This document shows, piece by piece, positions 17,956-47,780 of a stretch of 64,000 nt of DNA (position 1 is the stretch's first letter; every line of letters starts with the position of its first letter). The notes under the pieces were generated by a model, which was not told where the DNA came from, ran no database searches, and saw only the letters and a program-made list of their open reading frames with translations. The position numbers and the translations under genes are program-made. The DNA lies in the NCBI RefSeq assembly GCF_000767615.3, contig NZ_CP009553.3:186001-250000 (forward strand), in the 5' to 3' direction. The DNA is from Pandoraea pnomenusa. Lineage in GTDB: Bacteria > Pseudomonadota > Gammaproteobacteria > Burkholderiales > Burkholderiaceae.

Positions 17956-17962
17956 GTCAGAC

Positions 17963-30808: not shown

Positions 30809-32095
30809 TTGTCCCTTCTTAGATCGAGCGCCGGTTTCGCCATTTCCACGGCGGTTCGCATATTGGTCGGGTTGCTGATCGTCAAAAGCATGGCGTGGCA
30901 CCTCGGCCCGCAGGCGTTCGGCATGCTGGGGCAGATGATGACCGTGGTCGCGATCGCCAGCATGTTTGCGGGCGGTGGGACCGCCCTTGGCCTGACCAAA
31001 CAGCTCTCGGAGCCGGCCGACGAGGCCGCGCGCCTGCAGCGCCTCGGATCGGCCATGGTCATTTACGTCGCGATTTCGTCGATCGTGACGCTGGTGCTCG
31101 TGTTGGGCAGCCGACTGTTCGCCAGGAGCCTGCTTGGCGACGCCGACCACATGCTCGTCATTTGTGCATTAGCCCTGGGCTATTGGCTGGTCGGTGCGTA
31201 TAGCATTGTGCAGTCCATCTTCAGCAGTCGGCAGGACGTTCGTTCGCTCGTTTCGCTGAACGTTGTCGGGGCGCTGATCGGCGCAGCCGCGTTTCTGGCG
31301 CTTCTGTACGGTTTCGGTTTCACGGGCGCCGCGCTCGGACTCGTGGCGATGCCGGCAATCAACGGATTGTCCGCCTTGCTCTTTGCCCGGCTCCGGCTGC
31401 CGGCTCAGTGGCGGCAACTGCAATGGAATCCGAATTGGGAAGGCGCGCGGGAACTGCTGGCTTACGGCGGCGTGATGCTCGTTTCGGCCGCCGCCGTGCC
31501 GATGGCGCAACTGGCGATGCGAAACTTGCTCGGCGAGCGACTGGGGTGGGATCAGGTCGGCTATTGGCAGGGCGTGTTGAAGATCTCCGATGTGTACTTT
31601 CAGTTCGTGGGCGTGGTGCTGACGAGCTTCATATTGCCGAAGTTCGCCGCGGCCCGTTCGATCCAGCAGATCGACGGCATTCTTCGCTCGATCTTTTCGA
31701 CGCTCCTGCCGCTGGCGGTCGTCATGTTGATCGCCGTTTACCTGCTGCGCCACATCATCATCGAATTGCTCTTCAGCCAGTCTTTCATGCCGATGGCGGA
31801 TTTGTTCCTGCCGCAGGTTTTGGGCGACTTCGTCAGGATATGTGGTTCAATAATCGCCTATATCTTCCTGGCGCGCGGCTGGAGGCGAATTGCCATCGCC
31901 TCGGAACTGATGCAGGCCGCCATATTGATCGCCGGTACCTGGATGCTTGTCGGTCATGTGGGAATCATGGCACCTATCTATGCGTACTGCATCAGTGCCA
32001 CGCTCACCCTGTCGCTGATGCTGTGGGCCTACAGCCGACTCAGACGAAAAATGACGGTCTCCGGCGAGAACGTGCCGATCGGCTCCGTAGGTTGA
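30809..32095 (+). CDS. Polysaccharide flippase (Wzx-like, MATE/MOP superfamily)
   Basis: This 428-residue integral membrane protein has about 12 hydrophobic segments. It begins LSLLRSSAGFAISTAVRILVG, typical of Wzx flippases, which move undecaprenyl-linked repeat units across the inner membrane. A TTG start (30809) is used in this model since no ATG occurs in the first 30 codons before the family start; the Shine-Dalgarno is weak. Its base composition is visibly less GC-rich than the housekeeping genes, as is common for O-unit processing genes. It is the first gene of the glycan locus. Confidence 0.88.
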   Translation: MSLLRSSAGFAISTAVRILVGLLIVKSMAWHLGPQAFGMLGQMMTVVAIASMFAGGGTALGLTKQLSEPADEAARLQRLGSAMVIYVAISSIVTLVLVLGSRLFARSLLGDADHMLVICALALGYWLVGAYSIVQSIFSSRQDVRSLVSLNVVGALIGAAAFLALLYGFGFTGAALGLVAMPAINGLSALLFARLRLPAQWRQLQWNPNWEGARELLAYGGVMLVSAAAVPMAQLAMRNLLGERLGWDQVGYWQGVLKISDVYFQFVGVVLTSFILPKFAAARSIQQIDGILRSIFSTLLPLAVVMLIAVYLLRHIIIELLFSQSFMPMADLFLPQVLGDFVRICGSIIAYIFLARGWRRIAIASELMQAAILIAGTWMLVGHVGIMAPIYAYCISATLTLSLMLWAYSRLRRKMTVSGENVPIGSVG

Positions 32096-32191
32096 CGTCG
32101 CGCGCCCGGTTCGGGGTGCCGTCGTTCGCATTGAAATGACGACATAAACGGTCGCCGGCGCTCACGTGCCGACGGCAGAATGAGGAAACGG

Positions 32192-33391
32192 ATGAGGGTA
32201 TTGATTCTCTGCACCAAGTTTTCCACCGTTGAATCCGACGGATGGCTAACCAACGATCTGGCCGCCGCCTACGCGGCAGCCGGGCACGAGGTTACCGTGG
32301 TGTGCGTGGACTGGTCCGGGCAATCACGCGCTCAGGTGCTCACGATGTACGGTAGCGTGCGCGTCATCAATACCCCTATCGACCTGTCCGCGGTGCGCTG
32401 CCTGCCGGGAGCGCTGCAGAAGATGTACAAGTGGTTCTGGGCCTCGCGCCGTGCCATTCCGTTCGTCGACCAGCACCTGACGGTGCAGCCTTATGACCTC
32501 TTCGTGGGTTTTTCCCCGGCGTCCACTGCGTTCTGGATGCAACGCCACTTGCTGCGCCGACTCAAGCCGGCACGGAAGTACATGGTGCTGTGGGACTTTT
32601 TCCCCCGCTATCATCACGAACTCGGATTGATTCCGGCCGGCCCGCTGTTCACGATCGCAAAACGTATGGAAACCCTGGCGATTCGCCAGTTCGACACCGT
32701 CGGTGTGATGTCGCCGGCCAATATTCCGTACTTCTGGAAGGAAACGCCGAGTTTTCGCGGGAAGGTCGAAGTGTTGCCGCTGTGGGGGCCACAGACGCTT
32801 GCTCAAGAGGGCAATCGTCAGGAAATTCGACACCGCTTCGGCCTGCCGCAGGACCGCATCGTCGCGATCTTTGGTGGGCAGTTGATTCCCGGGCGCGGCA
32901 TCGAGCTGTTGCTCAAGCTCGCCGAAGCTTCGCGCGAGCGTTGCCCGCAGGTGGTCTTCGCGATCGCGGGCGGAGGCCCGCTGGAGGACTATCTGAAACA
33001 ACGCCTGACCGAACCGGAACTGGCAAATGTCCGCTATCTCGGCAAGATTCCCCGCGATGAATATCTGACGTTCCTGACCGCGTGCGATATCGGCATCGTT
33101 TTCAATTCAGGAACGGTCAGTGTGCCGACGTTCCCGTCGAAGTCCATCGACTACTTCAGGGCAGGGCTCCCTATTCTTGGCGCGGTGGAAGCCGCAACCG
33201 ATTATTCCGAGATTCTCGAAAACGAAATCCACGGTGGCTACTCATCCGTAACCACCCAATTTGAACAGATCCGGGAAAATCTGGCCAAGTTGTGTGCATC
33301 GGAAAATCATCGACGTGAATTGGGCGAGAACGGTCGTCGGTATTTCCTGGCGAAGATGACGGCGCCACAGATCGTCAGTCAGATTCACTGA
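32192..33391 (+). CDS. Glycosyltransferase, GT4-like
   Basis: The protein has 399 residues from the ATG at 32192, preferred to the ATG at 32180 because AGGA lies six bases upstream of it. The two Rossmann-like domains of a GT-B enzyme are visible: ILCTKFSTVESDGWLTNDLAAAYAAAGHEVTVVCVDW at the N-terminus, then FGGQLIPGRGIELLLKLAE and FAIAGGGPLEDYLKQRL in the donor domain. SKSIDYFRAGLPILGAVE is the usual nucleotide-sugar binding region. Donor and acceptor sugars are unknown. It is one of only two intact glycosyltransferases in the locus. Confidence 0.88.
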   Translation: MRVLILCTKFSTVESDGWLTNDLAAAYAAAGHEVTVVCVDWSGQSRAQVLTMYGSVRVINTPIDLSAVRCLPGALQKMYKWFWASRRAIPFVDQHLTVQPYDLFVGFSPASTAFWMQRHLLRRLKPARKYMVLWDFFPRYHHELGLIPAGPLFTIAKRMETLAIRQFDTVGVMSPANIPYFWKETPSFRGKVEVLPLWGPQTLAQEGNRQEIRHRFGLPQDRIVAIFGGQLIPGRGIELLLKLAEASRERCPQVVFAIAGGGPLEDYLKQRLTEPELANVRYLGKIPRDEYLTFLTACDIGIVFNSGTVSVPTFPSKSIDYFRAGLPILGAVEAATDYSEILENEIHGGYSSVTTQFEQIRENLAKLCASENHRRELGENGRRYFLAKMTAPQIVSQIH

Positions 33392-33402: not shown

Positions 33403-34557
33403 ATGAGTTTTTACATCGTTATCGCCGCTGTTCTCAGCCTGCTGGCATTGATGCAGGTGGTATGGCGAAAGCGCATCATGTCACTTGGCGGACTCGCCGT
33501 TCTGCTGCTGTGGGCGCTTGCCGCGTTCCGCTACCGCACGGGCTACGACTGGCTTGTTTACCAATCGTTCTTCGATCAGTACGCACCGAATTTCCTGGGC
33601 GACGGCTCCGGCATGGTGCCCATGGAACCGTTGTATGTACTCCTGAATATTGTCGTCGCAAAAACGACAGGGAGTTTTCAGGTTCTGCTTTTCGTGATCG
33701 CCACCTTCAATATCTGGGTTTTGTATCGATTTGTAAAACTGGCGCGTGCGGACCTGCTTTTCTGTTGTGCTTTCTATTTCTGCCTGATCTATTTGCCGCT
33801 GCAAATGGGTGTGTTCCGCCAGTCGCTGGCCGTGTCGATGTTCATGATCGGCATGATTTATGCGGCGAAAGGACGAAACAGGCTGGCGGCACTTTTCAGC
33901 GTTCTGGGTGTCGGATTTCAATATTCGAGCGTTATCTATTTCGTCGTCTATTGGCGCAAGGCCGTTCGTGCGGTAACCAATCATCCGTACGTGTTCGTGG
34001 GTGTTGTGCTGGCCTTCTACGCGCTCGGCATCGGTGTGGCCTCGCTCGCGTTGGAGGCACTGTCCAAGCTGAGCCTGTCGTTCATCTCGGAAAAGGCGGC
34101 CATCTATGCATCGACGGGCGCGTTCGATCGCTCGCTCGGGGCCGTGGCCTACCTGCTGGTAAACTGTTGCATCTTTCTGTGGGTTAACAGGCAGATCGGG
34201 CAACGCAGCCGGTTTCAGGAGCTTCTTTTCGGTGCGATAATCCTGCAGATCGCATTTCAGGGGCTCCTGTTCGACTTCCCGATTTTCTGGAACCGAACGC
34301 AGTATCTCGCAGTGCTTCCGCAAGCGATTCTGCTATATCAGGCCATTACGATTCAGCCTGCCGTGGTGCGAATGGCTGTCGCGTCGACATCGCTGGCATT
34401 TGTCGTCTCTGCACTTGTTTATCAACTGGTTAATCCTCTGATTGAGCCCTACATTCCGTATTACTCATATCTCGAATATAAATTGACTGGAGATACGGGG
34501 GATGGACTCGGCAGAACGCTTGAGTATTACCGAAGATTTGAGGCCCATTTACAATGA
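33403..34557 (+). CDS. EpsG/Wzy-like polysaccharide polymerase
   Basis: This 384-residue membrane protein has roughly ten hydrophobic segments and the EpsG family opening (ALAAFRYRTGYDWLVYQSFFDQ). Wzy/EpsG proteins polymerise repeat units at the periplasmic face. Positions such as GYDWLVYQ and VFRQSLAVSMFMIG (a conserved RQ motif) support the family. The AT content is the highest of the locus. It overlaps the next gene by 4 bases (ATGA). Confidence 0.85.
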   Translation: MSFYIVIAAVLSLLALMQVVWRKRIMSLGGLAVLLLWALAAFRYRTGYDWLVYQSFFDQYAPNFLGDGSGMVPMEPLYVLLNIVVAKTTGSFQVLLFVIATFNIWVLYRFVKLARADLLFCCAFYFCLIYLPLQMGVFRQSLAVSMFMIGMIYAAKGRNRLAALFSVLGVGFQYSSVIYFVVYWRKAVRAVTNHPYVFVGVVLAFYALGIGVASLALEALSKLSLSFISEKAAIYASTGAFDRSLGAVAYLLVNCCIFLWVNRQIGQRSRFQELLFGAIILQIAFQGLLFDFPIFWNRTQYLAVLPQAILLYQAITIQPAVVRMAVASTSLAFVVSALVYQLVNPLIEPYIPYYSYLEYKLTGDTGDGLGRTLEYYRRFEAHLQ

Positions 34558-35600
34558 GTATCAGTTCATTCAACAATAAGGTGCTGCTGATTACCGGCGG
34601 TACAGGTTCGTTTGGCAATGCAGTTCTGCGTCGCTTTCTTGACACTGATATCGGTGAAATCCGTATCTTCAGTCGAGATGAGAAGAAGCAGGACGACATG
34701 CGCAAGCGCTACAACAGCGACAAGCTCAAGTTCTACATCGGCGACGTGCGTGATCCGGCTTCGGTGGTCAATGCCATTCGCGGTGTGGACTTCGTGTTCC
34801 ACGCTGCTGCGCTCAAGCAGGTGCCGTCGTGCGAGTTCCACCCGATGGAAGCGGTGAAGACGAACGTGATGGGTACCGAGAATGTGCTCGAGGCGGCGAT
34901 TCAGAATGGTGTCTCCCGCGTCGTGTGCCTGAGCACCGACAAGGCGGTCTACCCCATCAATGCCATGGGGATTTCGAAAGCCATGATGGAAAAAGTCATG
35001 GTGGCGAAGTCCCGGTCCGCGGACGACAACAAGACGGTCATTTGCGGTACGCGCTATGGCAACGTCATGGCGTCGCGCGGTTCCGTCATTCCGCTGTTCG
35101 TGCAACAAATGCGCGACGGCAAACCGATCACCGTGACCGACCTGCTGATGACGCGTTTCATGATGACGCTCGACGATGCGGTGGAGTTGGTGCTGTACGC
35201 GTTCCAGCATGGCCGTAATGGCGACATCTTCGTCCAGAAGGCTCCCGCGGCGACGGTCGAGACGCTTGCACATGCATTGCGCGAAATGCTGGGCAAGCCG
35301 GATCATCCCATCAATGTGATCGGAACGCGCCACGGCGAGAAGCTGTATGAAACGCTCCTGAGCCGGGAAGAACTGGCGGCCGCGGAAGATCGCGGAGACT
35401 ACTATCGTGTCCCGCCCGATCTGCGCGATCTGAACTACGGCAAGTACGTCGAGCAGGGTGAGACCAGCATTTCGAGCGCCGAGGACTACAACTCCCACAA
35501 CACCGAACGCCTGGATATCGCCGGCATGAAGGTGCTGTTGCAAAAGCTCGCGTTCATGCGTGCTTTGCAGGCCGGCCAAGACGCGCAGCCCGAGGAGTGA
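34554..35600 (+). CDS. fnlA: UDP-GlcNAc 4,6-dehydratase/5-epimerase FnlA (WbjB-like)
   Basis: This 348-residue extended SDR protein performs the first step of UDP-L-FucNAc synthesis. The NAD-binding GGTGSFGN is near residue 16, followed by IFSRDEKKQDDMRKRY, HAAALKQVPSCEFHPMEAVKTNV and LSTDKAVYPINAMGISKAMMEK. The catalytic Tyr position is Met here, as in FlaA1/CapE-type dehydratases. The C-terminus has GTRHGEKLYETLLSREE. fnlB and fnlC follow, giving the full three-enzyme pathway. Confidence 0.92.
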   Translation: MSISSFNNKVLLITGGTGSFGNAVLRRFLDTDIGEIRIFSRDEKKQDDMRKRYNSDKLKFYIGDVRDPASVVNAIRGVDFVFHAAALKQVPSCEFHPMEAVKTNVMGTENVLEAAIQNGVSRVVCLSTDKAVYPINAMGISKAMMEKVMVAKSRSADDNKTVICGTRYGNVMASRGSVIPLFVQQMRDGKPITVTDLLMTRFMMTLDDAVELVLYAFQHGRNGDIFVQKAPAATVETLAHALREMLGKPDHPINVIGTRHGEKLYETLLSREELAAAEDRGDYYRVPPDLRDLNYGKYVEQGETSISSAEDYNSHNTERLDIAGMKVLLQKLAFMRALQAGQDAQPEE

Positions 35601-35604
35601 TCCG

Positions 35605-36711
35605 ATGAAGATCGTGGTGACCGGTGCGAACGGTTTCGTCGGCAAGAATCTGCTGGTTCATCTTGAGGAACTGGGCGGACACGAACTGGTGCGCGTGGGG
35701 CGCGAGACGACGGGCGAGCAACTCGATGCCGCCTTGCGGGATGCCGACTTCGTGTTCCACCTCGCTGGCGTGAATCGCCCCAAAAATCCGGAAGAATTCG
35801 TCTCGGGCAACGTCGATTTCACTCAGACGCTCGTCGACAAGCTGATCGCGACGGGACGCAAGGTGCCGGTTGCCTACACGTCGTCGACGCAGGCCGTGGC
35901 CGATAATCCGTACGGGCAGAGCAAGGTCGGAGCGGAAGATGCGCTTCAGGCTTACGCACAACGCGTCGGTGCCGCGGTGTACCTCTATCGGCTGCCGAAC
36001 ATTTTCGGCAAATGGAGCCGTCCGAATTACAACTCGGCGGTAGCGACCTTCTGCCACAACGTGGCGCGTGGCCTGCCCATCGAGATCCATGCACCGGACG
36101 CCAAGGTGCGCCTTGTGTATGTCGACGACGTTTGCCAGGCATTCCTGTCGCTGCTGGGCGGCGATGCGCCGGCGCCGGGCTTCGTCGACGTCGAACCGGT
36201 TTACGAGACCACGGTCGGCGAGATGGCCGATCAGATCCGGGCGTTTCGCCAGAGCCGCGACACCCTCGTCAGCGAGCGGGTGGGCACCGGATTCGTGCGC
36301 GCGTTGTATTCGACCTACGTGAGTTTCCTCCCGGATGACGGTTTTGCTTATGACGTACCGATGTACGGCGACGCCAGAGGTGTCTTCGTCGAGATGCTCA
36401 AGACGCCGGACGCCGGGCAGTTTTCCTATTTCACGGCGCACCCCGGGGTGACGCGAGGCGGCCATTACCATCACACGAAGACCGAAAAGTTTTTGGTGAT
36501 CAAGGGCAAGGCGCGCTTCGGCTTTCGTCATATCGTGACGGGAGAGCGACTTGAGATTGAAGTCAGTGGCGAGAAAGCCCAGATCGTGGAGACGATCCCC
36601 GGCTGGGCGCACGACATCACCAATATCGGTGACGATGAAATGGTCGTGATGCTGTGGGCAAATGAAATTTTTGATCGTTCGCGACCCGATACGGTAGCGC
36701 ACAAGGTGTAA
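35605..36711 (+). CDS. fnlB: FnlB (WbjC-like) epimerase/reductase with C-terminal cupin
   Basis: This 368-residue protein starts MKIVVTGANGFVGKNLLVHL at the ATG at 35605 (GAGGAG upstream). It has an SDR domain with catalytic Tyr-Lys in YGQSKVGAEDALQAY, then from about residue 275 a cupin domain (GVTRGGHYHHTKTEKFLVIKG, VETIPGWAHDITNIGDDEMVVMLWANE). This architecture is specific to WbjC/FnlB, which makes UDP-2-acetamido-2,6-dideoxy-L-talose by 3-epimerisation and 4-reduction. Confidence 0.92.
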   Translation: MKIVVTGANGFVGKNLLVHLEELGGHELVRVGRETTGEQLDAALRDADFVFHLAGVNRPKNPEEFVSGNVDFTQTLVDKLIATGRKVPVAYTSSTQAVADNPYGQSKVGAEDALQAYAQRVGAAVYLYRLPNIFGKWSRPNYNSAVATFCHNVARGLPIEIHAPDAKVRLVYVDDVCQAFLSLLGGDAPAPGFVDVEPVYETTVGEMADQIRAFRQSRDTLVSERVGTGFVRALYSTYVSFLPDDGFAYDVPMYGDARGVFVEMLKTPDAGQFSYFTAHPGVTRGGHYHHTKTEKFLVIKGKARFGFRHIVTGERLEIEVSGEKAQIVETIPGWAHDITNIGDDEMVVMLWANEIFDRSRPDTVAHKV

Positions 36712-36714
36712 TTC

Positions 36715-37848
36715 ATGCGCAAATTGAAAGTGATGACCGTTCTCGGCACGCGCCCCGAGATCATTCGACTCTCGCGCGTCATGGCGCGTCTGGATCAGTA
36801 CTGCGATCACGTCATCGTTCACACCGGGCAGAACTACGATTACGAACTGAACGAGATCTTCTTCCGCGACCTCGAGGCGCGCCGTCCGGATCATTTCCTC
36901 AACGCGGCGGGCGCCAACGCGGCCGAGACGATCGGCAAGGTGATCATCGCGGCCGACAAGGTGATGGAAGAGGTGAGCCCCGATGCCGTGCTGGTGCTGG
37001 GCGATACGAATAGCTGTCTCGCCGCCATTCCGGCGAAGCGCCGCAAGATTCCGATTTTCCATATGGAGGCCGGCAATCGTTGCTTCGATCAGCGCGTGCC
37101 CGAGGAGACCAATCGACGCATCGTCGATCACACCTCCGACATCAATCTGACGTACAGCGACATCGCGCGCGAGTATCTGCTGCGCGAAGGGTTGCCGCCC
37201 GATCGGGTGATCAAGACGGGCAGCCCGATGTTCGAAGTGCTGAATCACTACGCACCGAAGATCGGCGGTTCCAATGTGCTGTCCGAACTCGGACTCGAGG
37301 CCGGCAAGTATTTCGTGGTCAGTGCCCATCGCGAGGAGAATGTCGATTCACCGATCAATCTCGCGAAGCTTGGTGAAACGTTGAATGCAGTCGCCAGCGC
37401 GTATGGCGAACCGGTCATCGTATCGACCCACCCTCGCACGAAGAAGCGCATCGAGGCCGCCGGACTGACGTTCGCCCCCAATGTTCGTTTGCTCAAGCCG
37501 CTGGGATTTCTGGATTACATTCGCCTCCAGCGCGACGCGCGGGCGGTGCTTTCGGACAGCGGCACGATCACGGAAGAGTCATCGATTCTGAACTTCCCGG
37601 CGGTCAACATTCGCGAAGCGCACGAGCGCCCGGAAGGCATGGAGGAAGCGTCGGTGATGATGACCGGCGTAGACGCCGATCGCGTATTGCAGGCGCTTGC
37701 CATTCTGGCCGATCAACCGCGAGGTGAGGCACGCCTGTTGCGGCAGGTCGCGGATTACAGCATGCCCAATGTGTCCGACAAGGTGCTGCGCATTATCCTC
37801 AGCTATACCGACTACGTCCGGCGCACCGTCTGGCGCCAGACGGTCTGA
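36715..37848 (+). CDS. fnlC: UDP-L-PneNAc 2-epimerase FnlC (WbjD-like)
   Basis: This 377-residue enzyme is of the UDP-GlcNAc 2-epimerase fold: [79 protein letters not shown] (only short parts quoted elsewhere), [11 protein letters not shown] and [11 protein letters not shown]. Preceded by fnlA and fnlB, it most likely converts UDP-PneNAc (L-talo) to UDP-L-FucNAc rather than acting on UDP-GlcNAc. It starts three bases after fnlB ends. Confidence 0.9.
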
Positions 37849-37906: not shown

Positions 37907-39142
37907 GTGAAAGTACTCATCGTTTCGCAATGGTTCGATCCGGAGCCGACGTTCAAGGGACTCATGTTCGCCAAGGCGCTCGTCGCGGCGGGACACGAGG
38001 TGGACGTGATCACCGGTTTCCCGAACTACCCGGGCGGCAAGGTCTACGACGGGTACAAGGTAAAGTGGCTGCAGCGCGAGGTCATGGACGGCGTTCGTGT
38101 CACACGCGTGCCGCTTTATCCGAGCCACGACGGGTCGGCCGTGCGTCGCATTGCGAACTACGCGAGCTACGCGGCATCGGCAACGCTCTATGGCGTTTTC
38201 GGGGCGCGCCGCGCCGACGTGATCTATGCGTACCATCCGCCGTTGACGGTGGGCATGGCGGCCGCGCTGATCGGCATGTTTCGCCGGACACCGGTCGTTT
38301 GCGACATTCAGGACATGTGGCCGGATACGCTTCGCGCCACGGGCATGCTCAACAGTGAGCGGGCGTTACGTGTTGTCAGCCGGTTCTGCGATTGGGTGTA
38401 CCGGCGCGCTGCGCGGGTGGTCGTGCTCTCGCCTGGTTTCAGGCGGTTGCTGGTGGAGCGGGGCGTCCCCGATGCGAAACTCGACGTTATCTATAATTGG
38501 TGCGACGAGACGGCGTTGACTCAGGCGGCGGCACGGCCCGCCGATGGCGACCCGTTCGGTTTCGCGGGGAAGTTCAACGTCGTATTTGCCGGCACGATGG
38601 GCAAGGCGCAGGCGCTCGATGCCGTGCTCGATGCGGCGAAGCTCGTAGCCGCGAAGCGCCCGGAAGTGCAGTTTGTTTTTGTCGGCGGCGGCATCGAAGT
38701 CGAGCGGCTCAAGGCGTCTGCCGCATCGCAGCAACTGACGAACGTTCGCTTCCTGCCGAGAATGCCCATCACGGAAGTCGGGGCGCTGCTCAAGGCTGCG
38801 GATGTGCTGCTCGTCCATCTGAAGGACGACCCGTTGTTTGCGATCACGATTCCGTCGAAGACGCAGGCGTACATGGCGGTCGGCAAACCCGTACTGATGG
38901 CGGTGCGCGGTGACGCGGCCACGCTCGTCGAAGAGGCCGGCGCCGGTTTTTCGGCGACGCCCGAAGATGCGGCGTCGGTGGCGGACGCGGTCTGCCGCTT
39001 CGCGGCGTTGCCGCGCGAAGCGCTGGACGCGATGGGCGCGCGCGGCGCGGCTTTTTATCAGGAGCACCTCTCGGTGCGCGTTGGCGTCGCCAGATTTGGC
39101 GAAGTTTTCGAGCGCGTGGTCGCCGAACGGAGGCAAGCATGA
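37907..39142 (+). CDS. wbuB: Glycosyltransferase, WbuB-like (putative L-FucNAc transferase)
   Basis: This 411-residue GT4 enzyme begins at a GTG with [25 protein letters not shown]. Segments [57 protein letters not shown] and [20 protein letters not shown] match the WbuB group, associated with L-FucNAc transfer in E. coli O26-type loci. Directly following fnlABC, it is the obvious user of UDP-L-FucNAc. Its stop overlaps the next start (ATGA at 39139-39142). Confidence 0.88.
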
Positions 39143-39807: not shown

Positions 39808-40983
39808 ATGCTCAATACTCGACTCTCGCCCTGGCCAAGCTATTCGGAAGAAGAAGTAGAGGCCGTCGCCGCCGTCCTGCGCTCGAACCGGGTCAATTAC
39901 TGGACCGGCACCGAAAGCCGCGAATTCGAAAAGGAGTTCGCCGCCTATATCGGGTCGCGCCATGCGATCGCGCTCGGCAACGGCACGCTCGCGCTGGATC
40001 TCGCGCTCCATGTGCTGGGCATCGGTGCGGGTGACGAAGTGATCGTCACGTCGCGAACGTTCCTGGCGTCCGCAAGCTCGATCATCAACGCCGGCGCGGT
40101 ACCCGTGTTCGTCGACGTGGATCGCGACTCGCAGAACATCACGGCAGACACCATCGCCCCCGCGATCACGCCGCGCACCAAAGGCATTCTCTGCGTCCAC
40201 CTGGCGGGCTGGCCCTGCGACATGGACCCGATCATGGCGTTGGCCAAGACGCACAACCTGTACGTGATCGAAGACTGCGCGCAGGCGCATGGCGCCAAGT
40301 ACAAGGGCCGCCACGTCGGCACGATCGGTCACATGGGCGCCTGGTCGTTCTGTCAGGACAAGATCATGACGACCGGCGGTGAAGGCGGCATGCTGACGAT
40401 GGACAACACCGACTGGTGGAAGGCGGCCTGGGCCTACAAGGACCATGGCAAGTCGTACGACGCCGTCTACGAAAAGCAGCATCCGCCGGGATTTCGCTGG
40501 CTCCATGAGTCGTTCGGCACCAATTGGCGCATCACCGAGATGCAATCGGCCATCGGGCGCATTCAACTTCGCCGGCTCGACGCCTGGAAGGCCCGGCGTC
40601 AGGCGCTCGCGGCGAAGCTCGACAGCGTGCTGCGCCAGCATGACGTGGTTCGCGTGCCGAGCGTGCCCGCGGACATCGAGCACGCCGAGTACAAGCATTA
40701 CGCCTTCGTTCGCCCGGAGCGGCTTCGTGAAGGCTGGACACGCGACGCCATCATCGAAGCGCTGACGGCGAAGGGCGTGCCCGCGTACCAGGGATCGTGC
40801 TCAGAGGTCTATCTGGAGAAGGCGTTCGACAACACCGGCTGGCGCCCCGAAGTCCGCTTGCCGGTCGCACGCGAACTCGGCGAGACAAGCCTGATGTTCC
40901 TTGTGCACCCGACATTGACCGACGAGGAGATGGCGTTCGTTTGCCGCGAGCTGGACGAGGTTCTGACAGCGGCCTCGCGCTAA
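39808..40983 (+). CDS. DegT/DnrJ/EryC1/StrS sugar aminotransferase
   Basis: This 391-residue PLP enzyme transfers an amino group to C4 (or C3) of a nucleotide-linked keto sugar. Seen are ALGNGTLALDLALHVLGIG, VTSRTFLASASSIINAGA, YVIEDCAQAHGAKYKGRHVGTIG and the PLP-lysine region SFCQDKIMTTGGEGGML. The next gene makes the 4-keto-6-deoxy sugar it would need. The ATG at 39808 is used by homology of MLNTRLSPWPSYSEEEVEAV. The exact position aminated cannot be deduced from sequence. Confidence 0.9.
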   Translation: MLNTRLSPWPSYSEEEVEAVAAVLRSNRVNYWTGTESREFEKEFAAYIGSRHAIALGNGTLALDLALHVLGIGAGDEVIVTSRTFLASASSIINAGAVPVFVDVDRDSQNITADTIAPAITPRTKGILCVHLAGWPCDMDPIMALAKTHNLYVIEDCAQAHGAKYKGRHVGTIGHMGAWSFCQDKIMTTGGEGGMLTMDNTDWWKAAWAYKDHGKSYDAVYEKQHPPGFRWLHESFGTNWRITEMQSAIGRIQLRRLDAWKARRQALAAKLDSVLRQHDVVRVPSVPADIEHAEYKHYAFVRPERLREGWTRDAIIEALTAKGVPAYQGSCSEVYLEKAFDNTGWRPEVRLPVARELGETSLMFLVHPTLTDEEMAFVCRELDEVLTAASR

Positions 40984-40988
40984 ACACC

Positions 40989-42905
40989 ATGTTGCGTATG
41001 ATCGTGAACCTGCCGCGTAGTGCGAAGATCACCGTGATGGCTGCGGCCGACGCGGTGCTGTTGCCTTTGTCGTTGTGGACCGCGATCGGTCTGCGGCTCG
41101 ATTTCTGGCATTTTCCGCAAATCCACGCCTGGTGGGTTTACGCGCTGACATCGGTGCTGGCGATACCGATCTTCATGTGTCTCGGGTTGTACCGCGCCGT
41201 CGTCCGGTACATGGGCTCGCGCGCCATGCTCATGATCGTGCTGGCGGTGACATTGTCCGTGTGGGCGTTTGCCGGCGCCCTGACGCTGCTGGTCCTGCCC
41301 CCCGTGCCACGCGGCGCGTTGCTGATCTACTGGGTCATGGCCGTCTTCTACATCGTCGGCAGTCGTCTGCTCGCACGCACGGCGTTGCTGAACTGGCGTC
41401 CGTCCGAGCGCGGTCGCGCGGTCATCATCTACGGGGCGGGCAGTGCCGGGTGCCAACTGGCCGTGGCGCTGCGGGCCGGCAAGGAGTATCAGCCGGTGAT
41501 GTTCGTGGACGACAATCCCGCCCTGCAAAGTCTCGAGATCATGGGGTTGCGGGTGCGCGATCCCAAGGACCTGCCGAAGCTGGTCAATCGCTTCCAGGTC
41601 GAGCAGATTCTGTTGGCGATTCCGTCGGCCAGTCGCAGCCGTCGCATCGAGATCATCAACAAGCTCGAAGCGCTGCGTGTCGAAGTCCGGGCGATTCCGG
41701 GCATGGCGGAGCTGGTGGGCGGCACGGTGCGTGCCACCGACGTGCGCGAGATCGAGATCGACGACCTGCTTGGCCGTGACACGGTACCGCCGGACCAGCG
41801 GTTGCTCGAAGCCAACGTGCGTAACAAGAACGTGATGGTCACGGGCGCGGGGGGCTCGATCGGCTCCGAACTATGCCGCCAGATCGTGCTGCTGCGCCCG
41901 CGCCGGCTGGTCCTGTACGAACTGTCTGAATACGCGCTGTATTCGATCGCGCAGGAGCTCGAGCTGGTCGTGGGGCAACGGGAATTCCGCGACATCGAGA
42001 TCGTGCCGGTGCTCGGTTCCGTGCAGAACCGCGATCGCGTGACCGATATCATGCGCCGCTATGGCGTGCAGACGGTGTACCACGCGGCAGCCTACAAGCA
42101 TGTGCCGCTGGTCGAATTCAATATGACCGAAGGGGTGCTCAACAATACCTTCGGCACGAAGGCCGCGGCGGAAGCGGCCATCGCGGCGGGCGTGGATACG
42201 TTTGTGCTCATCTCCACAGACAAGGCCGTGCGGCCGACCAACGTGATGGGCGCCACGAAGCGTTTCGCCGAGCTGGTGCTCCAGGCGTTCGCCAACGACC
42301 CGAGCGTCAAGACCCGCTTCTGCATGGTGCGTTTCGGCAACGTGCTGGGGTCGTCGGGTTCCGTCGTGCCACTGTTCCGGAAGCAGATCCTCTCCGGCGG
42401 ACCGGTCACCGTCACGCACCCGGAAATCAACCGCTATTTCATGACGATCCCGGAGGCCGCGCAACTGGTGATCCAGGCCGGTGCGATGGGCGCTTCCGGC
42501 GAAGTGTTCGTGCTGGATATGGGAGAGCCGGTGCGTATCGTGGATCTCGCCCGGCGCATGATTCACCTGTCCGGATTCTCCGTCGCGGAAGACGGTCGCA
42601 GCAACGGCGATATCGCGATTGAATTCAGCGGCCTGCGCCCTGGCGAGAAGCTGTACGAGGAGTTGCTGATCGGCGACGACGTGACGGGCACGCCGCACGC
42701 GAAGATCATGATGGCCAACGAGCACTTCATTCCGCGGAGCGAACTCGAAGGGCTGTTGCAAATTCTTGCCGACGCCTGCAAACACAACAAGCACGACGTC
42801 ATCATCAACACGTTGCGCAACTGTGTGTCGGGCTTCCGCCCCGAGTCGGAAATTCGTGACCACCTCTACACGGTCGGCCAGCGCCCGGTGCGCTCCGTTT
42901 CGTAG
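40989..42905 (+). CDS. WbpM/PglF-like UDP-GlcNAc 4,6-dehydratase
   Basis: This 638-residue membrane-anchored enzyme has four N-terminal transmembrane helices (residues about 15-125), a CoA-binding-like Rossmann domain (VIIYGAGSAGCQLAVALRAG) and an SDR dehydratase domain with GAGGSIGSELCRQI (about 284) and LISTDKAVRPTNVMGATKRFAE (about 406). Tyr of the classical triad is replaced by Met, as in WbpM and PglF. It converts UDP-GlcNAc to the 4-keto-6-deoxy intermediate for QuiNAc, FucNAc (D) or bacillosamine-type sugars. It ends the plus-strand arm of the locus. Confidence 0.93.
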   Translation: MLRMIVNLPRSAKITVMAAADAVLLPLSLWTAIGLRLDFWHFPQIHAWWVYALTSVLAIPIFMCLGLYRAVVRYMGSRAMLMIVLAVTLSVWAFAGALTLLVLPPVPRGALLIYWVMAVFYIVGSRLLARTALLNWRPSERGRAVIIYGAGSAGCQLAVALRAGKEYQPVMFVDDNPALQSLEIMGLRVRDPKDLPKLVNRFQVEQILLAIPSASRSRRIEIINKLEALRVEVRAIPGMAELVGGTVRATDVREIEIDDLLGRDTVPPDQRLLEANVRNKNVMVTGAGGSIGSELCRQIVLLRPRRLVLYELSEYALYSIAQELELVVGQREFRDIEIVPVLGSVQNRDRVTDIMRRYGVQTVYHAAAYKHVPLVEFNMTEGVLNNTFGTKAAAEAAIAAGVDTFVLISTDKAVRPTNVMGATKRFAELVLQAFANDPSVKTRFCMVRFGNVLGSSGSVVPLFRKQILSGGPVTVTHPEINRYFMTIPEAAQLVIQAGAMGASGEVFVLDMGEPVRIVDLARRMIHLSGFSVAEDGRSNGDIAIEFSGLRPGEKLYEELLIGDDVTGTPHAKIMMANEHFIPRSELEGLLQILADACKHNKHDVIINTLRNCVSGFRPESEIRDHLYTVGQRPVRSVS

Positions 42906-43035: not shown

Positions 43036-44079
43036 CTATCGTACCGACGGCATCGACGAGACCGACGCCAGACTCTCCCTGAAGTGACGCACTTTCGCCT
43101 CGTTGTCGGCGAGGGTGAGATGCGTCTCGAGGGCACGCGTCGGAATGCGCCTGCAGATCTGGTGATCCTCGGCGAACACCTTGCGGTTGATCTGCGCGGT
43201 CGATTCGAAGAAAGTCTGCGCGGTGGCCAGCCGTTCCGGCACGACCGGTGCGGTCAGCAACCGGCTGGCGAAATGCGTGCGTTCGGGGTCGTTCGAGGGG
43301 AAGAAGTTCTGAAGCGAGTACGAATACCCATAAGTCGATGAGAGCATCGCGAACGGGAAAATGTACAGGCTCTGATAGCCCTCATACCGATAGTCGATAC
43401 TGAACAGGCGGCTCATGGCGCGCAACTGCTTGTCGACGCGGCTGTTGCCTACCGGCGCACGCCAGATCGAATTGAGGCCGTGGAATACGTTTTCGCCCTC
43501 TTCGAGGCGCAGCGTTCCCAGCGAATTCGGATGCACCATATCGATGTGATACGGCTCCAGCGCGTTTTCCAGTGCGACGCGCCAGTTGCATTCGAACGGG
43601 TAATGGTTGAAGTCGTACCGTCCGGCGATATTGAACGAGATCTCTTCGAGCACCGTCTCCGTTTCGCCCAACTGATCCGACAGGCTCATGATCGGCTCGA
43701 TGCCGATGAACATGAAGTCCGCGCACCATTCCACGCGGAATTCGTTGAGCTTTGCCTTGGCCAGATCGCACGGCGCGAACCGTTCGGGTTGCGGCACGTG
43801 GACCGTGCCTTGCTCGAAGCGCCAGCCATGATACGGACAATGCGCCGGCTGATTACCGTGCGCGTCGACGAAGAAGCGCGTACCGCGATGCGGGCAGAGG
43901 TTGTCGAACGCCACGATGTTGCCGTGGTCGTTGAAAAGGACGATCTCTCCGTCAGCCCAGTTCAGCAGCAGGAAGTCATTGTCGGCCAGCAGCTCGGTGC
44001 GGTGACCGATCAGATGCCAGTACTGGCGGGACAAACGTTGCTCTAACACGAACGGCTCCGCGATAGGTTTGTGGGTCAC
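43036..44079 (-). CDS. Rieske (2Fe-2S) non-heme iron oxygenase
   Basis: This 347-residue oxygenase alpha-subunit-like protein starts at a GTG whose bases overlap the stop of the acyltransferase gene (GTGA). The Rieske cluster motif is CPHRGTRFF...HCPYHGW near residues 60-85 (CxH-x16-CxxH). The mononuclear iron site is NALEPYHIDMVHP near residue 178. The C-terminal domain is of the ring-hydroxylating type but short. Reductase and ferredoxin partners are not encoded nearby. In a glycan-acyl operon it may hydroxylate the sugar or the acyl chain, which is inference; the substrate cannot be read. Confidence 0.85.
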   Translation of the reverse strand: MTHKPIAEPFVLEQRLSRQYWHLIGHRTELLADNDFLLLNWADGEIVLFNDHGNIVAFDNLCPHRGTRFFVDAHGNQPAHCPYHGWRFEQGTVHVPQPERFAPCDLAKAKLNEFRVEWCADFMFIGIEPIMSLSDQLGETETVLEEISFNIAGRYDFNHYPFECNWRVALENALEPYHIDMVHPNSLGTLRLEEGENVFHGLNSIWRAPVGNSRVDKQLRAMSRLFSIDYRYEGYQSLYIFPFAMLSSTYGYSYSLQNFFPSNDPERTHFASRLLTAPVVPERLATAQTFFESTAQINRKVFAEDHQICRRIPTRALETHLTLADNEAKVRHFRESLASVSSMPSVR

Positions 44080-44711
44080 ATCTTTTTGGACGGCGGCGCA
44101 TACAGCGTCATGCCATCCGCGAGTCGGCGCATGGCCGTCGTGCCGGCGCCGAGCGTGCAATCCGCGCCAATGCTCACGCCAGGCATGACGCGCGCCCCCG
44201 ATCCGACGAACGTGCGAGTGCCGAGCACCGAGAATCCCATCAGGTCGACGTGCGCGCTCAGCGTGCAGAAATCGCCGACGCTCGCGTCGTGACCGATCGA
44301 CGAGCAGGCATTGACGGTCACGAAATCACCGACCTTCGCGTCGGCGGAAATCAGCGACTGCGGGCAGACGACCAACCCTTCGCCGAGCGTTGCCGTTGCG
44401 GCGACCACCGCGCTGGGATGGATGACGGTCGCGAATCGCACCTCGGGATTGCGCTCGCGCAGCAGGCTGGCGAGTCGTTCGCGCGTTTTCGGCGCGCCGA
44501 CGGCAATCACCAGCTCGATGCCCGGCGCCGCCACGAAGTCTGACGGCTTGCCCAGGTAGGCAACCCCGTAGTTGTAACCGTTCAGGCACTCAGGATTGTC
44601 GTCGAGCACGCCCACGACATCGCCCCGGCCCGGCCCGGATTCGATCTGGCGAATCCAGGAAATCAGTTCGCGGCAGAAACCGCCGCCGCCCACGATGACG
44701 TATTGCTTCAT
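44076..44711 (-). CDS. PglD/NeuD-like left-handed beta-helix acyltransferase
   Basis: This 211-residue protein has an N-terminal Rossmann-like nucleotide-sugar domain (MKQYVIVGGGGFCRELISWIRQI, VIAVGAPKTRERLASLL) and a C-terminal hexapeptide repeat beta-helix (VIHPSAVVAATATLGEGLVVCP, VTVNACSSIGHDASVGDFCTLSAHV, GARVMPGVSIGADCTLGAGT). Catalytic His in SIGHDASVG fits the PglD base. PglD acetylates the 4-amino of UDP-bacillosamine precursor with acetyl-CoA. Here, with an ACP and ketoacyl synthases in the same operon, it may use an acyl-ACP donor. Confidence 0.88.
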   Translation of the reverse strand: MKQYVIVGGGGFCRELISWIRQIESGPGRGDVVGVLDDNPECLNGYNYGVAYLGKPSDFVAAPGIELVIAVGAPKTRERLASLLRERNPEVRFATVIHPSAVVAATATLGEGLVVCPQSLISADAKVGDFVTVNACSSIGHDASVGDFCTLSAHVDLMGFSVLGTRTFVGSGARVMPGVSIGADCTLGAGTTAMRRLADGMTLYAPPSKKM

Positions 44712-45475
44712 CAGCGCACCGTAAACCCGCCGTCCACGACCATCGTGGTGCCGGTAATCCACCGTGCGGCAGGCGAAAGCAGGAAGGTCACCGCGTTGGC
44801 GAGATCGTCCGTCGTGCCGAATCCGAGCAGGTGCTTCTCTTCGTAAGCCTGCATGGCGGCCGGCGGGAGGCTCGATGCGAGACGGCCATGCATGGCCGTC
44901 TCGACGGCACCGCTCGCCACGCTGTTGACGCGAATCTTGCGCGGCGCCAGTTCGACGGCCAGCGAGCGAGCCAGTCCATCGATCGCCGCCTTGGACGCCG
45001 AGTAGGCCGTCATCCCTGCCTGACCGCGCAATCCGGCGGCCGACGACATGAGCACCAGCGAACCGCCATCGCGAATGACGTCTTTCATGGCCATGGCGCG
45101 GGCGATGCCGAATGCCGTATTGACGCTCGCGGCGAAGAGCTTGTCCAGGCTCGCCTGCTTCGTCATCTTGATCGGCAGGATCAGCTCCAGGCCCGCGGCG
45201 TGAAAGATGCCATCGACGCCGCCGGCGGCGACGGCGGCTTCCTTCACCTGTTGCGCGGCGGCGTCGGCGTCGGCAAAGGCGACCACGACGGCCTGGTGCT
45301 CGGCGCGTGTACCGAGCGAATTCACGCATTCCTGCGTGCGCGCTTCATCGCGACCCATGGCGACGATACGCGCCCCGCACGCCGCGAGCATCTGCGCCGT
45401 GGCTCGGCCGATGCCCGACGACGCGCCGGTCACCAGGAAGGTCTGGCCGGAGAGGGCCTGGGAATCAAAGATCAT
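44711..45475 (-). CDS. SDR-family oxidoreductase (FabG-like ketoreductase)
   Basis: The protein has 254 residues from the ATG at 45475 (MIFDSQALSGQTFLVTGASSGIGRATAQML). The TGASSGIG cofactor site, catalytic Ser in VLMSSAAGLRG and YSASKAAIDGLARSLAVEL with Tyr-Lys are intact, and it ends with TGTTMVVDGGFTVR. It probably reduces a beta-ketoacyl-ACP made by the adjacent KAS III enzymes, analogous to FabG; a sugar substrate is the alternative. Its stop overlaps the acyltransferase start (TGATG), and its start lies inside the end of the synthase gene by 11 bases. Confidence 0.9.
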   Translation of the reverse strand: MIFDSQALSGQTFLVTGASSGIGRATAQMLAACGARIVAMGRDEARTQECVNSLGTRAEHQAVVVAFADADAAAQQVKEAAVAAGGVDGIFHAAGLELILPIKMTKQASLDKLFAASVNTAFGIARAMAMKDVIRDGGSLVLMSSAAGLRGQAGMTAYSASKAAIDGLARSLAVELAPRKIRVNSVASGAVETAMHGRLASSLPPAAMQAYEEKHLLGFGTTDDLANAVTFLLSPAARWITGTTMVVDGGFTVR

Positions 45476-46523
45476 GGAACACCGTTTCGTTGCATGCGAG
45501 CGGGCCAACGCGCATCAGCGCGGAGCCCCACGAGTACCCGACGCCGAAGCCGGCCATCAGCAGTTGCTTCGGCTCGGCGAGCGCGTCGCGCAGGTGCGTG
45601 CTGAGCAACAGCGGAATCGATGCACAACTGGTATTGCCGTACTCGCCGATGTTGATGTGGAACTTCTCCGCCGGAATTTTCGACTTCCTCGCCAGGTGCT
45701 TCAACATGAACTCGTTGGCCTGGTGATAGAGGAACCCGTCGACGTCGTCGATCGTCTGTCCGGCGTATTGCAGCGTGTCCGCGACGAGGCCCGGAACGGA
45801 TTTGAGCGTGAAATTGAAGATCTCGCCGCCGTCCATGTACAGGCAGGCCGGATCGCGGCCTTCGAGGCGAGGATCGTCCGGCAGCGTCGTGCGGAAGCCG
45901 CCCTGCGGGATGATGAGATTTTTGGCGCCCGCGCCGTCGGTGCCGATGACGAAGGTGCTGGCCTGCGCGCCCTCGTCGTGTTCGACGGCCGTGGCGGTGC
46001 CGGCGTCGCCGAACAGCATCGCAGTGGCGCGATCGTCGGGCGATACCGTACGGGTGATCGTGTCGCCGGCGAGCAGCAGCACGCGGCGTGCGCCGCCCGC
46101 GATCATCGTCGAGGCCAGCCACAGTCCATACGTGTACCCGGAGCATCCGAGATTCACGTCGAACGCGGCACATGCCTTGTCGAGACCGAGCTTGCCGTGC
46201 AACGCACAAGCGGTGGCCGGCAACCGGTAATCGGGCGTTTGCGAGACGAAAATCAGGGCGTCGACGCTGTCGAGCGCCCATCCCAGGCTCGACAGCAGCT
46301 TTTGCGCTGCATGGTGACAAAGGTCCGCGGCGGTGGTCTTGTCGTCCACCCAGTAACGCCGCTGAACTCCAATCATCTTGACGACGTCACGCACTGCATC
46401 GGCGCCGAAGCGCGCTTCGAACCCGTTGTTGTCGACTTCATTGCGCGGCAACACCGACACGACGCCGCGAATGGCGACGTTGCCGATGCGGTGTGCGCGA
46501 CCGAACGTCAAGCGATTGTTCAT
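45465..46523 (-). CDS. 3-oxoacyl-ACP synthase III-like enzyme, copy 1
   Basis: This 352-residue thiolase-fold protein has the FabH triad: Cys in AFDVNLGCSGYTYGLWL, His in FLYHQANEFMLKHLA and Asn in GEYGNTSCASIPL. The first half includes MIGVQRRYWVDDKTTAADL, typical of KAS III. FabH enzymes condense acyl-CoA with malonyl-ACP. It starts with overlap of the ACP stop (ATGA at 46520-46523). About 30-40% similar by eye to the second copy in this operon. Its substrate is not known. Confidence 0.92.
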   Translation of the reverse strand: MNNRLTFGRAHRIGNVAIRGVVSVLPRNEVDNNGFEARFGADAVRDVVKMIGVQRRYWVDDKTTAADLCHHAAQKLLSSLGWALDSVDALIFVSQTPDYRLPATACALHGKLGLDKACAAFDVNLGCSGYTYGLWLASTMIAGGARRVLLLAGDTITRTVSPDDRATAMLFGDAGTATAVEHDEGAQASTFVIGTDGAGAKNLIIPQGGFRTTLPDDPRLEGRDPACLYMDGGEIFNFTLKSVPGLVADTLQYAGQTIDDVDGFLYHQANEFMLKHLARKSKIPAEKFHINIGEYGNTSCASIPLLLSTHLRDALAEPKQLLMAGFGVGYSWGSALMRVGPLACNETVFHDL

Positions 46524-46741
46524 GCCTTGGCCTTTTCAATCAGCGCCTCGATATCCGAGACCTTTTCACATTTGCCCAGGGCCGAGCCGTCGAGCGTCAC
46601 ATTGAAGATCTCGTCGACGATGGCAATGGTCGAGACGATCGCCAGCGAATCCCAGTTGTGGTCTGCCAGCGCCATATCCGGGCCTACGGTCGCGGGATCG
46701 ATTTCCAGCACTTCTGCGAGTTCGGCGTAAAATTTTTCCAC
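46520..46741 (-). CDS. Acyl carrier protein
   Basis: This small acidic protein has 73 residues from a GTG at 46741, which has AAGGGAG about eight bases upstream; a TTG at 46771 is an in-frame alternative. The phosphopantetheine attachment Ser is in HNWDSLAIVSTIA (DSL motif). Helices I-III are recognisable from FYAELAEVLEIDPATVG to VSDIEALIEKA. It likely carries the acyl chain built by the two neighbouring synthases. It is distinct from the housekeeping AcpP, whose DSL sits in GADSLDTVE-like context. Confidence 0.9.
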   Translation of the reverse strand: MEKFYAELAEVLEIDPATVGPDMALADHNWDSLAIVSTIAIVDEIFNVTLDGSALGKCEKVSDIEALIEKAKA

Positions 46742-46760
46742 TTGTTGCACTCCCTTCAAA

Positions 46761-47780
46761 TCAAAAATCAATAATGGTGCCGGCCCATGAGAGCCCCACG
46801 CCGAAACCGACCACCATGACGCGTCGGCGTCCGTCGGCTCGACGGGGCAGCGAGGTCAGGGCGATCGGGATCGTCGATGATACGGTATTGCCGTAGTGGC
46901 TCATGTGCACGACGAACTTCTCTGCCGGAATCTGGCACTTCTTGCGCAGGGTTTCCAGAATGAACGTGTTGGCCTGATGGAATACGACATGGTCAATGTC
47001 GTCCATGGTCAGTCCGGCCTTCTCGAGCAACCGGCGCACCGCATCGGGCACTGCGCGCAGCGTGAATGCCATGACGGCCCCGCCGTCCATGAACAGATGG
47101 TCGTCGGTGCGGGTGTTACCCGACTCGTCGCTGTACTCGGCCGCGCTGGCTTCGCTGCGCTCGGTGCGTGCGCCCCCCGTCTTGACGATCAGGTCTTTGG
47201 CGCCCTTGCCGTTCGTGCCGAAAATGAACGGACCAATCGCGTTGGCCCCACTGGCGTCGTGATCGTCGGCCTCGATGAGCGTGGCGGCCGCGCCGTCACC
47301 GAAAATGGTGCGTACGCTCTTGTCCTTCGGATGGATGAGCTTGGTATACGTATCCGCCGTCAGCAGCAGCACACGGCGCGCGTTGCCGGCCTCGATCAGC
47401 CCCTTGGCGAGCGAGAGGCCATAGACGAAACCCGAGCAGCCCAGGTTGAAGTCGAGCGCGCCGATGTCCTGACGCAGCCCCAGGCGTTCCTGCAGCACGC
47501 ACGCCGTGGTCGGCAGGATGAAATCCGGCGATTGGGTGCACAGCAGCAGAAAATCGATCGACGCGCGATCGATATCGTGAGCGTCGAAAAGCTTTTCGGC
47601 TGCCGCAGCCGCCAGATCCGAGGCCGTCTCTCCCTCGGCTGAAATGCGGCGCTCGGCGATGCCTGTCTTGGCAAGGATCTTCTCCGCCGTCCACTCGGGG
47701 AATACTGCCGCCAAATCCTCGTTACTGATCACTTCTTCGGGGAAGTGGGTGGCAATGGCGGCAACTCTAGCTTTCGTCAT
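46761..47780 (-). CDS. 3-oxoacyl-ACP synthase III-like enzyme, copy 2
   Basis: This 339-residue enzyme has Cys in FNLGCSGFVYGLSLAKGL, His in VVFHQANTFILETLRKK and Asn in HYGNTVSSTIPIAL, a complete KAS III triad. It begins MTKARVAAIATHFPEEVISN and keeps TGIAERRISAEGETASDLA. It is the first gene of the minus-strand operon. A second copy in the same operon suggests two-step elongation or a heterodimer, or that one copy is an acyltransferase of the DarB/CerJ kind. Confidence 0.92.
   Translation of the reverse strand: MTKARVAAIATHFPEEVISNEDLAAVFPEWTAEKILAKTGIAERRISAEGETASDLAAAAAEKLFDAHDIDRASIDFLLLCTQSPDFILPTTACVLQERLGLRQDIGALDFNLGCSGFVYGLSLAKGLIEAGNARRVLLLTADTYTKLIHPKDKSVRTIFGDGAAATLIEADDHDASGANAIGPFIFGTNGKGAKDLIVKTGGARTERSEASAAEYSDESGNTRTDDHLFMDGGAVMAFTLRAVPDAVRRLLEKAGLTMDDIDHVVFHQANTFILETLRKKCQIPAEKFVVHMSHYGNTVSSTIPIALTSLPRRADGRRRVMVVGFGVGLSWAGTIIDF

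Follow-up and report, generated by a model that had tools for sequence, protein, structure and literature searches.

A 64,000-nucleotide stretch of the Pandoraea pnomenusa genome (assembly GCF_000767615.3, contig NZ_CP009553.3, positions 186,001 to 250,000; hereafter the window) contains a polysaccharide locus in which six minus-strand genes, from 47780 down to 43036, encode enzymes of short acyl chain synthesis and transfer together with a Rieske oxygenase. In our reading, to which we assign a probability of about 0.5, the operon builds a short hydroxyacyl group on its own acyl carrier protein (ACP), the Rieske enzyme adds oxygen, and a PglD-type transferase places the acyl group on the 4-amino group of a UDP-sugar.

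The first gene encodes a ketoacyl-ACP synthase III (KASIII-1; 46761..47780) with Cys115, His268 and Asn298 intact. It is followed by the dedicated ACP (46520..46741), having the serine for phosphopantetheine, and by a second synthase (KASIII-2; 45465..46523) with Cys127, His267 and Asn297 intact. The open reading frame (ORF) of the ACP extends to 46771, and GTG at 46741 is its probable start, judged from relatives. Next are a FabG-like ketoreductase of the short-chain dehydrogenase/reductase (SDR) family with Ser, Tyr and Lys present (44711..45475), a left-handed beta-helix (hexapeptide) N-acyltransferase of NeuD/PglD/VioB type with His141 present (44076..44711), and the alpha subunit of a Rieske non-haem iron oxygenase (43036..44079), whose GTG start overlaps the stop of the transferase gene. 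All six proteins exceed the Pfam cut-offs; for the oxygenase these are PF00355 (48.2 bits) and PF00848 (58.5 bits), and its fold is also consistent. Among NCBIfam models, KASIII-1 passes NF006829 (273 bits, cut-off 249) and the transferase passes TIGR03570, the NeuD/PglB/VioB family (174.4 bits, cut-off 160.8), while KASIII-2, the ACP, the SDR and the oxygenase are below every cut-off (for the SDR, among its best 25 families). Read from the DNA, 19 bases separate the KASIII-1 stop from the ACP start, and the overlaps that follow are 4 (ACP/KASIII-2), 11 (KASIII-2/SDR), 1 (SDR/PglD) and 4 bases (PglD/Rieske). Because the genes overlap or nearly touch, the six are likely to form one transcription unit.

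Tail to tail with this operon, on the plus strand, are a WbpM/PglF-type 4,6-dehydratase with a membrane part (about 40989-42905; PF02719, 409.7 bits) and a PglE-like sugar aminotransferase of the DegT family (about 39808-40983; PF01041, 335.9 bits). Their ORFs are open from 40797 and 39670, respectively, so 40989 and 39808 are probable starts. The original prediction, made from the sequence alone, had described an overlapping minus-strand operon of the six named families facing a WbpM-like dehydratase and a DegT aminotransferase, and both the gene content and the arrangement are confirmed.

The association of the oxygenase with acyl genes was followed in other genomes. A pattern-based scan of 84,980 species genomes, which detects only relatives bearing two short peptide patterns and is not exhaustive, yielded 69 loci with oxygenase relatives. 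Among the loci whose oxygenase is at least 42% identical to that of the window (L005-L049, L053 and L054), 45 of 47 carry KASIII-2 in the cluster, and the two that do not (L015 and L048) stop at a contig edge. Module genes are also nearby in three loci with 30-35% oxygenase identity, two from Prochlorococcus and one from SAR86. Further counts refer to 55 loci (L005-L054, L093, L094, L095, L097 and L110, with L095 and L110 probably representing one species, Burkholderia glumae) or, with the window added, to 56 sequences. All six genes occur together in 45 of the 56; matches are missing for KASIII-1 in 5, ACP in 7, KASIII-2 in 2, SDR in 3 and PglD in 5, several of them at contig ends. The oxygenase distances correlate with those of the other five proteins (r 0.74-0.90, n=42), a level reached in none of 999 permutations; shared ancestry of the species contributes to these correlations, for which the cut or broken copies L008, L047 and L110 were left out of the 45 six-gene sequences. 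The six-gene association is far from chance.

In the family, the oxygenase (at least 50% identity) and KASIII-2 (E<=1e-90) occurred in the identical 9 of 349 sampled genomes, about 1.5 kb apart. Two further family genomes (G092 and G348) have oxygenase hits of 28-31% and KAS-SDR-PglD sets with one KAS match each (L126 and L127); L126 has no ACP match. The class and order surveys found KASIII-2 (E<=1e-78) in 3/369 and 1/399 genomes, the window's own being counted in both, and these matches are too few for statistics. One survey genome, G426 (L097), gave matches to KASIII-2, the ketoreductase, the oxygenase (26%), PglD and KASIII-1, with no ACP match; another, G663 (L096), had a KAS, an aminotransferase and, at 33 bits, a weak match to the ACP, with no Rieske or PglD match.

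The catalytic residues, whose roles we take from family knowledge, are well conserved among the module proteins. KASIII-1 has the Cys in 50/51 (one copy is cut) and the His and Asn in 51/51, and each of the three is present in 53/54 copies of KASIII-2, the exceptions being a cut copy and the broken copy on a B. glumae plasmid. The ACP Ser (49/49) and the transferase His (51/51) are invariant, and the SDR has Ser and Tyr in 53/53 and Lys in 50/53, with Arg in the other 3. In the oxygenase, the Cys-His/Cys-His ligands of the Rieske cluster are present in all 54 readable sequences and the 2-His-1-carboxylate iron ligands His180, His185 and Asp307 in 56/56. The bridging position is Asp in 3/56 and Glu in 53/56, the latter as in CntA, where the accessible text of PMC7948474 assigns a role to the bridging glutamate between the two iron sites. 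The amine-oxidising carnitine monooxygenase CntA (PDB 6y8j, 6y9d, 6zgp) is the best-scoring solved relative, nearly tied with aromatic dioxygenases. However, while the metal ligands and a bridging Glu like that of CntA are kept, the aromatic substrate residue of CntA, Tyr203, is kept neither in the window enzyme nor in any of the 56 sequences (Ala in 52, Gly in 3, Thr in 1), and the NCBIfam GbcA model is far from reached (61.7 bits, cut-off 670).

Both synthases have solved relatives. KASIII-1 matches PDB 3gwa/3gwe with 408 bits, and the closest solved relative of KASIII-2 is PDB 4EFI. Over its full length, 4EFI aligns with KASIII-2 from the module of Paraburkholderia xenovorans LB400 (785 bits, E 6e-236); that module (L010) lies beside vioA, fliC and fliD. 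These entries, presumably of structural-genomics origin, are named only 3-oxoacyl-ACP synthases, and the molecule name shows no glycan role.

The sugar genes around the module vary. The aminotransferase is of VioA type in 24 of the 55 loci, of PglE type in 10 and another match in 7, with none in 14; VioA and PglE were never found together (0/55). WbpM or an initiating transferase accompanies PglE in all 10 of its loci; flagellin, fliD or flhA was matched in 15 loci, 14 of which have VioA. Environmental Pseudomonas are among the carriers of the polysaccharide version (L029, L032 and L036). The gene table of B. glumae plasmid pBGF3 is an example, listing first flagellin, FliD, FliT, a TPR protein and VioA, and then a ketoacyl synthase, ACP, SDR, acetyltransferase and Rieske protein. 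Nine of the 14 loci with no aminotransferase are short or cut contigs, and five are full-length (L005, L012, L014, L050 and L052). The original prediction had named a location of these genes mainly away from sugar-nucleotide genes as the result that would speak against it; an aminotransferase of VioA, PglE or DegT type was matched within the stretch analysed in 41 of the 55 loci. This same frequency, together with the very varied substrates of Rieske enzymes, would also suit an enzyme acting on the sugar ring or the finished glycan, the acyl product of the core then being no different from that of systems lacking an oxygenase (3,5-dihydroxyhexanoyl or 3-hydroxybutanoyl). We consider this unlikely, as the oxygenase stays with the KAS and SDR genes while the sugar genes vary (VioA 24, PglE 10, neither 21 of 55) and persists in four loci with no PglD match (L012, L023, L026 and L043). 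The oxygenase tracks the acyl genes and not one sugar. Since acyl genes and oxygenase are constant and the sugar context is not, the most likely substrate is the acyl group, which the oxygenase most likely hydroxylates.

Some variation in these loci concerns other genes. A methyltransferase and a PhyH-family oxygenase both match in 11 of the 55 loci (L007, L030, L033, L034, L035, L037, L044, L046, L047, L049 and L053), mostly VioA versions, and the sugars there may be decorated further. In L012, L023 and L026, where the KAS-SDR-Rieske clusters show no PglD match, the genes that follow encode a protein of about 360-373 residues, for which Pfam gave no match when the L023 copy was tested, and a PIG-L family protein, tested on the L012 copy; these loci possibly use a different transfer enzyme. 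The Ralstonia pickettii locus L005 (6182-10990) has all six genes and the oxygenase most similar to that of the window (65%) among the 69 scan loci.

A route consistent with these families can be proposed for the reading in which the oxygenase acts on the acyl chain. KASIII-1 would condense acetyl-CoA with malonyl-ACP and the SDR would reduce the product; KASIII-2 would then extend the 3-hydroxybutanoyl chain on the ACP by a further malonyl unit, followed by another reduction by the SDR. The chain is probably C6, 3,5-dihydroxyhexanoyl, and we favor such a serial route because, in the accessible text of the respective papers, one KAS goes with a C4 group in Pseudomonas syringae (PMC3927599) and two go with a C6 group in Flavobacterium psychrophilum (PMC6519341). 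The Rieske enzyme, with a reductase encoded elsewhere, would hydroxylate the chain either on the ACP or after transfer. The PglD-type enzyme would transfer it onto UDP-Qui2NAc4N, the expected product of the facing WbpM and DegT enzymes, and the residue would enter the O-antigen with L-FucNAc via Wzx/Wzy.

It is also conceivable, if rather doubtful, that the two synthases do not act serially, forming a heterodimer or having one as a mere partner, and that the acyl group is C4, an oxidised 3-hydroxybutanoyl. Rieske sets with one KAS match do exist (L126 and L127), and P. syringae, as described in the part of PMC3927599 available, makes its C4 group with one KAS. In contrast, Cys, His and Asn are kept by both synthases in every readable copy except the two-piece KASIII-2 of the B. 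glumae plasmid, and two KAS accompany C6 in F. psychrophilum according to the accessible text of PMC6519341.

The oxidation itself may be of another type. Instead of hydroxylating, the enzyme may desaturate, form a ketone or close a ring, the product then being, for instance, a cyclic N-acyl group; some Rieske enzymes cyclise. In the O-antigen of P. pulmonicola, according to the accessible text of PMC8052242, the amine of Qui3N carries a group with a five-membered ring. We regard such chemistry as quite unlikely here, where no sequence evidence for it was found and the expected sugar is Qui2NAc4N instead of Qui3N. For the hydroxylation reading, the viosamine residue computes to 275.137 with dihydroxyhexanoyl and 291.132 with trihydroxyhexanoyl, and the corresponding Qui2NAc4N residues to 332.158 and 348.153. 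A review reports a B. pseudomallei flagellin glycan of 291.1 Da; this match to trihydroxyhexanoyl-viosamine was set aside because the groups that the review names, in the text available, are acetyl, formic acid and possibly acetamidino. Finally, among solved structures the nearest relatives of the transferase mostly carry the name acetyltransferase, which would fit ordinary bacillosamine-type acetylation from acetyl-CoA with the other genes as bystanders. The tight overlaps, the occurrence of the six genes together in 45/56 sequences and the chemistry published, in the sources as far as available, for a matching gene set make this highly improbable.

Within the genus, the oxygenase is present in 2 of 32 genomes and KASIII-2 in the same 2. 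In the second carrier, G019, the complete locus recurs with gene order unchanged and 83-98% protein identity. Two other congeners, G012 and G027, show the site without the cassette: they have no module, and about 0.2-0.25 kb separates a related WbpM (76-78%) from the adjacent oxidase gene. Other gene sets were found at that flank in the eight congeners examined. The module thus behaves as a cassette in a variable polysaccharide locus.

The remainder of this locus, all on the plus strand, consists of a flippase (Wzx role; 30809..32095), a GT4 glycosyltransferase (32180..33391), an EpsG-family membrane protein that is the probable polymerase (Wzy role; 33403..34557), three genes for the UDP-L-FucNAc route (34554..37848), a WcaI-like GT4 glycosyltransferase with a probable WbuB role (37907..39142; Pfam and NCBIfam) and an initiating sugar-phosphate transferase (PF02397; 39139..39743) in two halves in different reading frames. 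In the UDP-L-FucNAc route, the WbcJ/FnlB-like and WecB/FnlC-like proteins score above their cut-offs and the FnlA-like protein below (659.8 bits, cut-off 730). A 5'-nucleotidase gene flanks the locus on one side and cytochrome oxidase genes on the other. The locus has the features of a Wzx/Wzy O-antigen locus, namely flippase, polymerase, initiating transferase, glycosyltransferases and variable content at a fixed site.

Several observations weigh against the proposed acyl hydroxylation on a 4-amino sugar. The WbpM-type and DegT proteins score below the NCBIfam equivalog cut-offs, and therefore the exact sugar is a prediction. Whereas the congener G019 (L093) has the initiating transferase gene as one open frame, the window has it in two, so the locus may be silent in this strain, or a base call may be wrong. 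The L005 module has no sugar gene matched within 10 kb, and the four loci with no PglD match include one (L043) also with no SDR match. A reductase match was found in only 1 of the 55 loci (L031, about 6 kb from the oxygenase) when 12 of the 13 PF00175 places in this genome served as queries (E<=1e-6); as a control, the same queries did recover the reductase next to a different Rieske gene of this genome (L075). The two genomes with distant oxygenases show only one KAS match (L126 and L127), so the C6 length is not general. KAS, ACP and PglD matches are found in none of the 19 loci with 25-31% oxygenases (L055-L073), 3 of which have a generic SDR match, and the family surveys score just the 5-6 best candidates per genome. 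The likeness to the F. psychrophilum genes, as the accessible text describes them, is one of gene content. In our literature search, which covered titles and beginnings of abstracts, few subscription journals and no supplements, no product was found in print for any oxygenase-bearing strain. A broader idea, that every Rieske gene is a module member, is countered by the module-free loci L055-L073.

Related kits and broken copies were also observed. On an Azospirillum sp. TSA2s plasmid (L113, 4554-6169), KASIII, SDR and GNAT genes are near a Rieske oxygenase whose Rieske and catalytic domains are encoded by two different genes, with products 22-29% like the window enzyme. On an Azospirillum thermophilum plasmid (L111, 8041-11888), the SDR shares 90% identity with its L113 counterpart and is accompanied by GNAT and KASIII, and a PhyH-family oxygenase is nearby; no Rieske gene is listed in its incomplete gene table. 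Plasmid polysaccharide loci of Parabacteroides distasonis (L115 and L116) have KASIII, two carrier proteins, an AMP-binding ligase, SDR and an acetyltransferase, that of L115 being 33% like the window PglD, with no oxygenase listed. In B. glumae BGR1 (L110, pBGF3), KASIII-2 has no gene-table entry, and its match at about 17468-18560 is in two pieces; in L095 (G342) it is in one piece, and flagellin, FliD and VioA match as well as in L110. In an uncultured Paraburkholderia symbiont (L047, 10007-11010), the oxygenase is split over two frames and also matches in two places in G244.

We put even odds on a wider proposal, namely a distinct Rieske clade dedicated to bacterial surface glycans. In it, an ACP-based mini fatty-acid pathway of its own would supply each such oxygenase with the chain, which would be hydroxylated, while bound either to the carrier protein or to the nucleotide sugar, before capping a 4-amino-4,6-dideoxy sugar of flagellin or O-antigen; one cassette would serve two sugar-nucleotide routes, and the Azospirillum lookalikes would suggest repeated recruitment of acyl oxygenation. 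The steady presence of an oxygenase in the acyl cassette predicts that many Burkholderiales and Pseudomonas have surface sugars, on flagella and in O-antigens, that we have not found described, and it gives the solved protein 4EFI a predicted role. Carrier- or sugar-bound short acyl groups would be a new class of Rieske substrate. Acyl groups on amino sugars influence surface antigenicity, as stated in connection with the R-group genes of F. psychrophilum in the accessible text of PMC6519341.

The closest known system is the F. psychrophilum wfp locus. In the main text of PMC6519341, as far as available, wfpC and wfpE encode KAS, wfpD an ACP, wfpF a ketoreductase and wfpG a PglD homologue; pglE, pglF and FucNAc genes are also there, and the O-antigen is of Wzx/Wzy type. 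There, wfpC-G are predicted to make 3,5-dihydroxyhexanoyl on Qui2NAc4N, the acyl structure being known from NMR and the link between genes and acyl group being itself a prediction. On this description, the window has the same two KAS, ACP, ketoreductase and PglD, plus PglE/PglF-type and FucNAc genes, and the wfp lettering, taken alone, implies the same gene order. The wfp locus differs in that no oxygenase is named and the word Rieske is absent from that main text. In Pseudomonas syringae pv. tabaci, according to the accessible text of PMC3927599, vioS/acp/vioR/vioB are associated with the 3-hydroxybutanoyl-viosamine of flagellin, and the modified viosamine was missing from a vioR mutant. This viosamine island and the PAK glycosylation island, as far as described there, have KASIII, ACP, a ketoreductase and a VioB-type transferase acylating a 4-amino-4,6-dideoxy sugar, as here; the viosamine island differs in having one KASIII, a C4 product, no oxygenase among its seven tabled genes, and flagellin rather than O-antigen as the target.

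By its ACP Ser, KASIII Cys-His-Asn, SDR Ser-Tyr-Lys and transferase His, and by its position adjoining genes for a 4-amino-4,6-dideoxy sugar (WbpM-type and DegT), the window module belongs with these ACP-based N-acyl sugar modules. The original prediction of a dedicated short-acyl module is therefore supported by precedent, in the sources as far as available, the five-gene core being published with 3,5-dihydroxyhexanoyl and a single-KAS version with 3-hydroxybutanoyl-viosamine. Its further suggestion, a short and possibly oxidised acyl group made on an ACP for a 4-amino-6-deoxy sugar, stands as to the dedicated ACP module beside such a pathway, with the oxidation and the exact sugar as predictions. 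The oxygenase, which it had called particularly unexpected, was not found in such an acyl set in the literature search, as far as its sources extend; it is nevertheless a regular member of the module and no oddity of this genome. A Rieske enzyme that works in a like manner is the CMP-Neu5Ac hydroxylase (CMAH), which hydroxylates an activated amino sugar at its N-acyl group and differs in acting on a preformed N-acetyl group of a nonulosonate. Since wfpC-G and vioS/acp/vioR/vioB are published, the first five genes are of a known kind, and the oxygenase is the new part.

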